Below, piece after piece: positions 17,881 to 21,138 of a stretch of 64,000 nt of DNA; the stretch's first letter is position 1; each line of letters starts with the position of its first letter. The notes under the pieces were generated by a model. It saw only the letters and a program-made list of their open reading frames with translations, ran no database searches and was not told the DNA's origin. The stretch comes from Paracoccaceae bacterium (lineage in GTDB: Bacteria; Pseudomonadota; Alphaproteobacteria; Rhodobacterales; Rhodobacteraceae): positions 52,176 through 116,175 of the forward strand of contig JAFWNM010000001.1 in NCBI GenBank assembly GCA_017510335.1, given 5' to 3'. The translations under genes and the position numbers were made by a program.

Positions 17881-17978
17881 TTGCCCAAAAGCGGGAACCG
17901 GTTTTGGGCTTCTCGAAATCCGGAATTAATAAGTCAGACCATGTCGCGTGAATACGAATGAACGCGGCATGGTCTAAT
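17881..17978. repeat. Double-palindrome intergenic repeat, copy 2
   Basis: It aligns with 2998-3097. The left hairpin is CCCAAAA-11-TTTTGGG (17884-17908). The right is AGACCATGxCGCGT pairing with ACGCGxCATGGTCT (17936-17975). It starts 5 bases after the uvrD stop, as copy 1 abuts the anti-sigma stop, so both copies lie at gene 3' ends. Confidence 0.8.
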
Positions 17979-18059
17979 GCGATCCAAAGGCCCCGTTCGC
18001 GTGGTCTGCCCAAGGGACACCGCCCGCAGACGACAAAATAGACCGGCAATTTCAGACAT

Positions 18060-18100
18060 AAAAAAAGCGGCAGTCCCAGGGAGGAGGAGGGGACTGCCGC
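18060..18100 (-). ncRNA. CcsR-like hairpin 6 acting as the array terminator
   Basis: A perfect 11-bp stem (GCGGCAGTCCC and complement, 18067-18100) with a 12-base CCTCCTCCC loop. A run of at least six T's follows directly on the minus strand (18061-18066). The hairpin thus doubles as a Rho-independent terminator, which fixes the direction of transcription. Confidence 0.88.
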
Positions 18101-18110
18101 TGATTTGCTA

Positions 18111-18162
18111 TGACCCCAGGGAGGAGGAGGGGGGCCGTTGCACTGTTCGGGTCATGGACCCG
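18111..18162 (-). ncRNA. CcsR-like hairpin 5, with alternative pairing
   Basis: CCCC and GGGG close a 13-base loop with CCTCCTCCC. TGACCC at 18111 could also pair with GGGTCA at 18149. That segment can instead form its own CGGGTC/GACCCG hairpin at 18148-18162. It is the least regular unit and may switch structure or be decaying. Confidence 0.6.
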
Positions 18163-18170
18163 ATATTCCA

Positions 18171-18210
18171 GGGACAGTCAGGCCAGGGAGGAGGAGGGCC
18201 TTGCTGTCCC
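18171..18210 (-). ncRNA. CcsR-like hairpin 4
   Basis: A 7-bp outer stem (GGGACAG/CTGTCCC), a small internal loop, a 4-bp GGCC/GGCC inner stem, and a 12-base loop with CCTCCTCCC on the minus strand. Confidence 0.83.
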
Positions 18211-18247
18211 AACGATCACCCCTAGGGAGGAGGACGGGGTGCTCGTT
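18211..18247 (-). ncRNA. CcsR-like hairpin 3
   Basis: A stem of 6 bp (CACCCC/GGGGTG), one mismatch, then 5 bp (AACGA/TCGTT). The loop holds TCCTCCCTA on the minus strand. It is separated from hairpin 2 by about 42 bases. Confidence 0.8.
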
Positions 18248-18289
18248 CGTGGACCGGTTTCTGGCAATCTGCCATGGCCGGAATAGGGT

Positions 18290-18322
18290 GACGGTGATTG
18301 GGGAGGAGGATCAATCACCGTC
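18290..18322 (-). ncRNA. CcsR-like hairpin 2
   Basis: A perfect 11-bp stem (GACGGTGATTG and its complement) with an 11-base loop holding TCCTCCTCCC on the minus strand. Confidence 0.87.
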
Positions 18323-18328
18323 GCTCTC

Positions 18329-18354
18329 GGACCCCAGGGAGGAGGAGGGGGTCC
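18329..18354 (-). ncRNA. CcsR-like hairpin 1
   Basis: A 7-bp stem (GGACCCC/GGGGTCC) with a 12-base loop containing CCTCCTCCC on the minus strand. It is the unit nearest the DUF1127 stop codon, only 8 bases away. Confidence 0.85.
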
Positions 18355-18361
18355 AAAACCA

Positions 18362-18574
18362 TTAATTCTCGTATGCGGCCTCGTATGCCAGGCGCGTGAT
18401 CATGGAGCGGCTGATGCCAAGGTCATCCAGTTCACGGCTGCTCAGGCGGCTCAGCTCGTCATGGGTGCGCTTGTAAACCCGGTAGCGTGCGAATGTATCA
18501 GCAACACTTTCAACCCAACCGATAAGGTAGGCGAGGGGGCGAACAGCGCTAACATTTGCTGTGATATGTGCCAT
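18362..18574 (-). CDS. DUF1127 small protein, likely CcaF1-type RNA-binding protein
   Basis: The 70-residue product ends in the DUF1127 signature, here YKRTHDELSRLSSRELDDLGISRSMI, an arginine-rich helical motif. It is immediately upstream of the six CCUCCUCCC hairpins. In R. sphaeroides the protein in this position (CcaF1) binds RNA and affects maturation of the co-transcribed CcsR RNAs; the same role here is inferred from sequence type and synteny. The start at 18574 has only a weak ribosome site (GAGA). Stress-induced expression is expected but no RpoH promoter could be assigned with confidence. Confidence 0.9.
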   Translation of the reverse strand: MAHITANVSAVRPLAYLIGWVESVADTFARYRVYKRTHDELSRLSSRELDDLGISRSMITRLAYEAAYEN

Positions 18575-18639
18575 TTTGCGTTTTCTCTTTTTATCATGTT
18601 GCGGTCAGTGCCGCGTCTTGTTGAATTCAAAATAGCAAT

Positions 18640-18671
18640 TTGCTGCATCCGCACAATAGACGATGCTGCAA
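18640..18671. promoter_or_regulatory. Imperfect palindrome upstream of the DUF1127/small RNA operon
   Basis: TTGCTGCATC and GATGCTGCAA are inverted repeats with a single mismatch, 12 bases apart, about 65-100 bases before the DUF1127 start. It could be an operator or a 5' leader hairpin. No known protein site is recognised. Confidence 0.35.
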
Positions 18672-18791
18672 TGCGGCTATGCGCCAGCGTCATGTTTACG
18701 CTAGGGAAATTAACAAACTGCTGCGAAATTGGACCATCCCCCGCGCAGTGCAGTCGTGCACGGGGGGGAGAAGATGAGTCTGGAAGCTATA

Positions 18792-20434: not shown

Positions 20435-21138
20435 CGCTGGTGCCGCTACGGTTGCGGGAATGACCGGGACCGTATGGCACCCATGGTATTTCATGGGAAT
20501 GACGGGTTTCCGGCTTTTCCGGTCCTGCCCTTTCCGTCTGCTGGCGCATCACACACGAATCAAGGGTCTGTGATTCGGCGTGACCCGCCGTAATTTGCGC
20601 GCAAAAACACCCCCAACGCCTTTGTTCTGACGCGAGTTGTTGTTGCATATGTGCAACTCTGGGGCGTTTGCTTGAAAATATTAAGGTATTTTCTTATCCC
20701 GGCGCTGCGCTGAATGGGATGGCATGGGCGCGCGGCATTTGGGGCGGTTCGCTGTATGTTCACGCTACATCTAGTGATACTTCCAAAGTATTAACAGAAT
20801 ACTGTGGCGCTGCGCGAAAAGTTCAGCCTGTTTGGCCCGTATTTTCCAGTTGATTACCATGCATTCCCATGTCATCCCTTTGTGCAAGATAGACGGGCAA
20901 TAAGGGGCGACCAAAGACCCCGACCGAGGCAGACAGTTTCATACAGGCACCCGCTTTATCTTGAAACAAACAGATCCGGCGCGCTTGCAAGCAGCATTCC
21001 CTCCCCCAAGGACGCAAGCGCAAACCGGGCACCCAGCGATGGGACAGTCGGCGGATCGGGCAGTGGCAGCAGCTCGATCCGCCGTTTCCATTTTCAGACC
21101 CCGTTACGGGGTCCATGGCAAAAAGGGACCGCCGCGAC
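20435..21138. other. Long noncoding region between apbC and mraZ
   Basis: This stretch of about 700 bases has no supported gene. It contains GTTGCA-TATG-TGCAAC (20642-20657) and AGTATT-AACAG-AATACT (20787-20803), two small palindromes, in its AT-richer middle. A set of GGGA/GGGC repeats lies just before mraZ (about 21040-21065), where MraZ-type boxes would be expected. It must contain the dcw promoter. RNase P RNA, found near mraZ in some relatives, was looked for and not seen. Confidence 0.5.

Follow-up and report, generated by a model that had tools for sequence, protein, structure and literature searches.

On the minus strand of the window, the 64-kb stretch of DNA analyzed here, a gene encoding a CcaF1-like DUF1127 small protein is followed by six hairpins that present the same loop motif (Table 1). 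The window contains exactly 6 matches to the motif CCTCCTCCC, which all fall within 18079-18345 on the minus strand, compared with a mean of 0.23 and a maximum of 2 in the shuffled window, and the stop codon of the DUF1127 gene lies 16 nt ahead of the first of them. Folding of the 302-nt strand 18361-18060 yielded -136.8 kcal/mol versus -101.0 kcal/mol for shuffled sequence (z -6.3) and placed all six motifs in hairpin loops with 11-13 unpaired bases each. A first-pass annotation of this DNA had described six same-loop hairpins behind a minus-strand DUF1127 gene, and the motif counts, the fold, and the PF06568 match all confirm it. The motif starts are spaced by 36, 76, 39, 67, and 40; therefore, the six hairpins form three pairs, which are separated by two linker hairpins lacking the motif. 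The last hairpin runs into seven U and, judged by its sequence, is likely to be an intrinsic terminator, as had also been proposed; a consensus terminator scan of the minus strand, which allows loops of 3-8 nt, did not list it. An Rfam search at gathering scores returned no match in the array region. The array lies near mraZ (window 20435-21115). UpsM of R. sphaeroides (formerly RSs0682) is described as deriving from the mraZ 5' UTR, and, judging by their names, RS0680a and RSs0682 may be neighbors in that species as well.

Table 1. Features of the array locus in window coordinates, in the order of the minus strand; hairpin ends were hand-counted from the minus-strand fold.
Feature	Position	Strand	Basis
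Candidate LysR-type (VtlR/LsrB-like) element CGCATAGCCGCATTG	18669..18683	-	3 mismatches to the VtlR 15-mer; aligned conserved position
Conserved ATTGTGC..GCAGCAA block with -10-like CTATTTT, before the gene	18629..18657	-	upstream alignment
DUF1127 small protein gene, 70 aa, CcaF1-like	18362..18574	-	PF06568, E 8.8e-14, 51.4 bits
Hairpin 1 (pair 1, first)	18325..18358	-	loop motif 18337-18345; fold
Hairpin 2 (pair 1, second)	18290..18322	-	loop motif 18301-18309; fold; covariation helix 3
Motif-free linker hairpin between pairs 1 and 2, preceded by CUAUUCC	18254..18281	-	fold; covariation helix 4
Hairpin 3 (pair 2, first)	18211..18247	-	loop motif 18225-18233; fold; arm-swap folding
Hairpin 4 (pair 2, second)	18171..18210	-	loop motif 18186-18194; fold; arm-swap folding
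Motif-free linker hairpin between pairs 2 and 3, preceded by GGAAUAU	18148..18162	-	fold; covariation helix 6
Hairpin 5 (pair 3, first)	18106..18142	-	loop motif 18119-18127; fold
Hairpin 6 (pair 3, second) and U7	18060..18101	-	hairpin 18066-18101, loop motif 18079-18087, U7 18060-18066; covariation helix 8

Folding and covariation of the stems

In an alignment of 29 arrays of the genus, each with six exact motifs, 97.0% of 1385 cells are paired, in a test that favors pairing because the consensus structure was derived from the same 29 sequences, and 27 of 48 pairs show changes on both sides. Cells changed on both sides numbered 127 compared with 37.0 in shuffles, none of 500 shuffles reached any of the five values, and pairing fell to 32.6-56.4% when partners were slid by 1-3 columns; as for relatedness, sliding keeps it and shuffling does not remove it. 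Both sides changed in 8 of the 10 pairs of hairpin 2, and hairpin 6 is 100% paired. Hairpin 4 is absent from the consensus structure, presumably because the alignment slips there. In an alignment-free test, each hairpin was folded with its own arms, with the arms of other genomes (mosaic), or with the arms of other units (unit swap); mean energies ranged from -14.5 to -25.4 kcal/mol for real arms, from -10.8 to -21.5 kcal/mol for mosaics, and from -6.5 to -9.7 kcal/mol for unit swaps, and real arms folded best on average for all six units, including hairpin 4 (-19.7 versus -10.8 kcal/mol for its mosaic). The stems thus covary within the genus, contrary to the outcome that would have spoken against the first-pass annotation, and those of the window array are variable in sequence yet kept as helices; we agree with the annotation's view that what is conserved and acts is the loop.

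The stems are not wholly unrelated to one another. A GCG(G/A)(C/T)R-type hexamer, a pattern chosen after looking, was counted in the 5' arms of strictly paired arrays. Second hairpins carry it in 68 of 88 pairs taken from 26 arrays of other genera and in 45 of 87 pairs of the genus, versus 2/88 and 0/87, respectively, for first hairpins. Because the hexamer sits mostly on second hairpins, the basic unit is a two-hairpin cassette. The first-pass annotation was therefore correct in that stem sequence differs between units, but calling the stems unrelated overlooked the 5'-arm motif shared by many second-of-pair hairpins. Its suggestion that unit 5 can refold fared similarly. In the window, a rival duplex between the linker and the unit-5 3' arm is possible (-12.3 kcal/mol versus -14.4 kcal/mol for the native stem), and it would also disrupt a linker hairpin worth -10.9 kcal/mol; however, native pairing was the stronger in all 12 genus arrays examined of the 29 complete ones, with the rival within 1.1-4.1 kcal/mol in seven and weaker by at least 4.4 kcal/mol in five. 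A unit-5 switch as a conserved feature is thus unsupported.

Kinship with CcsR and cuckoo RNAs and spread of the arrays

The array is a real, conserved, and typical CcsR/cuckoo operon, and its assignment to this described, ccaF1-type DUF1127-linked kind of RNA is near certain. Cuckoo RNAs, as papers citing Reinkensmeier and Giegerich (2015) present them, are found in Alphaproteobacteria and have conserved CCUCCUCCC loops and unconserved helix sequences; the window array shares with them the CCUCCUCCC motif in six of six loops, the variable helices, and the alphaproteobacterial host. The term CIN1 locus is used for a cuckoo RNA beside a short DUF1127 gene (PMC10253847), and such a gene, recognized by PF06568, lies ahead of the loops here, in agreement with the family originally assigned. 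On the other hand, cuckoo RNAs are described as having 2-4 hairpins (PMC4504443), whereas the window holds six in three pairs and one relative holds 26; the described number would be respected if the transcript is cut into two-hairpin RNAs. The alpha-r14 sRNAs/NfeR1 of Sinorhizobium have an identical loop motif and variable stems but consist of three hairpins in a stand-alone transcript, whereas the window has six behind an ORF.

With regard to unit number, four CcsR RNAs in R. sphaeroides had been taken to mean that the window carries two extra units. Four CcsR RNAs are indeed reported as co-transcribed with ccaF1 (PMC10253847), but RS0680a, which we read as a CcsR RNA, has two stem-loops with the motif in each (PMC3927594). 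The R. (now Cereibacter) sphaeroides locus was compared via Cereibacter azotoformans of the same genus, in which eight hairpins spaced 39|66|38|76|40|73|40 make up four pairs and all eight motif hairpins close by at least 11 pairs, an arrangement that fits CcsR1-4. Given two hairpins per CcsR RNA and four pairs in C. azotoformans, the window has three CcsR equivalents, one fewer than C. azotoformans, and we reject the reading of two extra units. The ccaF1-CcsR1-4 operon of C. sphaeroides, the C. azotoformans locus, and the window share one plan, a DUF1127 gene and then tandem two-hairpin units with CCUCCUCCC loops, and the operon differs in having four pairs versus three in the window. C. azotoformans has CACCCUUUUCGG and a further G+C-rich hairpin, in this order, behind its last motif hairpin, whereas hairpin 6 of the window leads directly into U7. 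With the window, a known RNA family gains a well-behaved member, and the unit count is set right, as CcsR-type hairpins must be counted in pairs.

The pair pattern is present in 36 of 38 genomes of the genus, the own genome included, and was not found in the other two (G007 and G017). Among the genus loci L001-L038, 29 hold six exact motifs, four hold five (L009, L017, L031, and L033), four are cut by contig ends (L029, L030, L037, and L038), and L018 is a stand-alone dimer; these loci were found by exact-motif search, so that loop conservation is overstated by the search itself. Of 296 genomes of the family Rhodobacteraceae, each at least 95% complete and nearly every one the sole representative of its genus, 235 have at least one pair match; in the class outside the family, 10 of 285 do, several of which we read as chance-like. 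Array sizes, counted as exact motifs in tandem starting near a DUF1127 gene in the best 80 of 487 loci from a DUF1127 scan of named genomes, were 1 in 2 loci, 2 in 2, 4 in 4, 5 in 8, 6 in 30, 7 in 8, 8 in 8, 9-11 in 15, and 12 in 1; two loci scored 0 with the gene off its assumed place and have 5 (L356) and 12 (L378) motifs. Six hairpins are thus not unusual but the mode in these best 80 loci, both overall and outside the window's genus (16 of 64), which itself contributes 16 loci, 14 of them with six. Longer arrays also exist. Of 12 genomes picked because they hold many pairs, all but G111 have triples (in G295, 7 came up with the reversed control as well); the 11 have 9-26 exact motifs per locus, and in seven long arrays that were folded (L053, L073, L076, L077, L079, L080, and L082), every motif closes by at least 8 pairs, including all 26 exact loops of L053 (G170).

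A 140-bp three-hairpin unit is tandemly amplified in L053 (6.5 copies, 97% match), as might be expected of a DNA-level repeat (REP-like or a mobile element) or of chance C-rich low complexity. Such an origin is hardly credible for the window array, since RNA-type covariation contradicts it, a tandem repeat search at 17900-18700 detected none, and the motif is not dispersed over the own genome, in whose 3.61 Mb and 43 contigs 6 of the 9 CCTCCTCCC copies are inside the array and 3 elsewhere; moreover, the array lies nearly always behind the same gene. Of the 95 loci L001-L095, which include repeated loci from the same genomes, 84 have a DUF1127 gene ahead of the array, with its stop codon usually 13-32 nt from the first motif (3, 43, 57, or 73 nt in a few). 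The 11 loci in which none was found ahead are stand-alone two-hairpin loci (L018, L039, L040, L041, and L051), contig-end fragments (L029, L030, and L037), two arrays (L061 and L065), and one match that looks like a chance occurrence within coding sequence (L063). In L065, five exact motifs lie right behind the conserved promoter block, and no DUF1127 gene was found between block and array. L018, L039, L040, and L041 belong to the same genus as the window and are second CCUCCUCCC loci of two hairpins each; they stand alone, lack a DUF1127 gene, and have a GCAATGC/GCATTGC-like stretch upstream. The array begins right behind the stop codon and ends in a terminator-like hairpin, which would suit a mere 3'-end stabilizer and terminator of the DUF1127 mRNA with no action in trans; we regard this as very improbable because six equal loops are not needed for a terminator, stand-alone copies occur in the genus (L018 and L039-L041), and trans effects are reported for both CcsR (PMC8307010) and NfeR1 (PMC10746234).

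Proposed processing and target pairing

The interpretation that we consider probable is that of a ccaF1-CcsR-type operon whose RNA is cut into two-hairpin sRNAs with loops that pair with Shine-Dalgarno (SD) sites. By analogy with S. meliloti NfeR1 and R. sphaeroides CcsR, a single transcript would start ahead of the DUF1127 gene and end at hairpin 6, and cleavage of its 3' part in the between-pair linkers would give three two-hairpin sRNAs; RNase E is the probable nuclease, with the DUF1127 protein as its probable helper. Each exposed CCUCCUCCC loop would then act as an anti-SD seed that pairs with GGAGG-type ribosome-binding sites and lowers the translation of metabolic and transport mRNAs; several equal seeds would raise dose and redundancy, while the divergent, covarying stems would keep each hairpin folding on itself. 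In R. sphaeroides, the CcsR RNAs are reported to be cut from the ccaF1 transcript with RNase E, to be destabilized by PNPase, and to act on FlhR mRNA and pyruvate dehydrogenase (PDH) functions (PMC7866481, PMC8307010, PMC7074977), and both RNase E and CcaF1 are reported to take part in their maturation (PMC10253847); whether the action of DUF1127 proteins is chiefly on RNA or on proteins is a matter of dispute (PMC12501420). An AU-type site pattern, chosen after looking, is found in 34 of 58 linkers between pairs versus 15 of 87 within pairs in the genus and in 33 of 62 versus 5 of 88 in other genera, with mean A+U equal within and between pairs (0.38 and 0.39 in the genus, 0.39 and 0.37 in the others); as a hint of cleavage, this is suggestive only.

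The identical loops might instead titrate a protein that binds RNA, be it the DUF1127 protein itself, Hfq, Rho, or a cold-shock protein, with stems that only present the loop and an array length that sets the capacity. Such a protein sponge would suit the recurrence of whole 9-nt loops when about six bases suffice for SD pairing (among 33 uncut genus arrays, 29 keep six exact loops and the other 4 keep five, by an exact-motif search that would miss more degenerate arrays), and it would accord with arrays that reach 26 hairpins, with the tight coupling to the DUF1127 gene, and with the reported RNA binding of CcaF1 (PMC10253847). We consider it unlikely, since NfeR1, which has three loops of the same motif, is reported to lose ntrB silencing when the three seeds are mutated (PMC10746234) and since two-hairpin loci stand alone without a DUF1127 gene.

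Tests of SD pairing across genomes gave mixed results. The pdhA ribosome-binding site matches the loop over at least 6 nt in 42 of 57 array-positive versus 11 of 31 array-negative non-genus genomes (p 0.0006) and over at least 8 nt in 12 of 57 versus 2 of 31 (p 0.12), and its 16S match is similar in both (means 4.96 and 4.74). Of the 144 non-genus genomes with a hit, 88 were examined; every array-negative genome (31) was included, whereas the 57 array-positive ones came from the top of a list sorted by genus likeness, which introduces a bias, and the statistics ignore kinship. Within the genus, the full 9-nt loop complement occurs at pdhA in 16 of 30 loci; pdhA in the window has GGGAGG only. 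An FtsZ motif search for a control gene gave no match in the 64-kb window. The association between pdhA and the array is unproven.

The loop complement ahead of a start, GGGAGGAGG N3-10 ATG, has 110 matches in the 38 genus genomes versus 19 for the reversed pattern, 4 of the 110 falling on the far strand of arrays. For the gene of the PQQ-alcohol-dehydrogenase ABC binding protein (TIGR03863), GGGAGGAGG-N4-ATG precedes 14 of 15 primary genus copies with a start, and two paralogs are without it; no gene of the window genome exceeded the profile cut-off. Across these copies (L247-L261), GGGAGGAGG is kept while the 4-nt spacer varies; CCTTT before GGGAGGAGG is mostly kept too, so that more than the loop complement is conserved. 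In a comparison of 70 TIGR03863 genes, the start codon was taken to be the one with the best 16S match; one gene gave none, and the 14 array-negative genes belong to 13 genomes. The SD matched the loop over at least 6 nt in 38 of 55 array-positive and 8 of 14 array-negative genes, which is no difference, and GGGAGG was present in 31 of 55 and 8 of 14, with no association. GGGAGG may simply be a common SD in the family. With a biased pdhA test and a null TIGR03863 test, we claim no targets.

CCUCCU is the core of the 16S anti-SD sequence. Because the loop carries it, and because GGGAGG-type SDs at one gene are equally frequent with and without an array, the RNA could be thought of as a translation-wide anti-SD mimic that, under stress, competes for mRNAs with the 16S rRNA tail and has no dedicated targets. 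The specific effects reported for CcsR in R. sphaeroides (FlhR mRNA; PMC8307010) make this improbable, and seed pairing by two-hairpin sRNAs remains our preferred explanation.

The promoter element and its possible regulator

A sigma-70 consensus scan listed no promoter on the minus strand. Upstream regions of array operons were compared in 98 deduplicated non-genus regions and 34 genus regions, with mononucleotide shuffles as a control; the loci are related, and the counts therefore show conservation, not independent origin. TTGTGCA is present in 87 of the 98 non-genus regions (1.1 in shuffles), and TGCA-N6-GCAT, the motif of the LsrB-bound NfeR1 promoter (PMC10746234), in 90 of 98 (0.2 in shuffles) but in only 10 of 34 genus regions. 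The published Brucella VtlR 15-mer, CAATGCAGCCATGCA (PMC12595884), was found on the transcribed strand with at most 3 mismatches in 86 of 98 non-genus and 31 of 34 genus regions, compared with 2 of 1960 shuffled regions and 2 of 98 on the other strand. The promoter consensus of the array family, GCATRGCNGC, occurs in 85 of 98 and 34 of 34 (shuffles, 0.15 and 0.05), whereas the strict VtlR core, GCAT-N3-TG-N3-T, occurs in 9 of 98 and 12 of 34. In the window, CGCATAGCCGCATTG fits GCATRGCNGC and is without an exact TGCA-N6-GCAT, which sets it apart from the NfeR1 promoter, and without GCAT-N3-TG-N3-T. Judging by these matches, the operon promoter carries a conserved element resembling the published VtlR/LsrB boxes. 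At 18746-18760 (hand-counted), downstream of a HIT-family gene, TGCACGACTGCACTG ties at 3 mismatches to the VtlR 15-mer.

VtlR and LsrB are reported to be activators that control DUF1127 genes and anti-SD sRNAs, encoded as separate genes under one activator in the Rhizobiales (PMC10746234, PMC12595884). The array promoters resemble these regulons of Agrobacterium, Brucella, and Sinorhizobium in their closeness to the Brucella 15-mer, and they differ in the rarity of the strict core and in the single operon that takes the place of separate genes. It is conceivable, though we hold this only tentatively, that in Rhodobacteraceae a VtlR/LsrB-type LysR activator drives a fused operon of a DUF1127 gene and 1-26 identical anti-SD loops, and that the Rhizobiales scheme and Rhodobacter CcsR are one ancient circuit. 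Since the same seed is repeated in a tunable array, dose would then be set by tandem gain and loss of hairpin cassettes. An LsrB ortholog was not found by trxB synteny in the own genome (L438) or in L441, where the neighbors read as Lrp-like and not LysR, and titles and opening lines of abstracts, in a search that left the subscription literature mostly uncovered, yielded no link of VtlR or LsrB to CcsR.

The findings that merit further attention are the long arrays and the LysR-type promoter element. If confirmed, arrays of up to 26 hairpins in one genome would far exceed the 2-4 described for the cuckoo family, and the promoter element would point to a LysR-type regulator of the VtlR/LsrB sort. 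Such a regulator would unite the best-studied anti-SD sRNA circuits, those of rhizobia, agrobacteria, and Rhodobacter, and the questions of who controls and who reads the loops would become testable with one regulator knockout.
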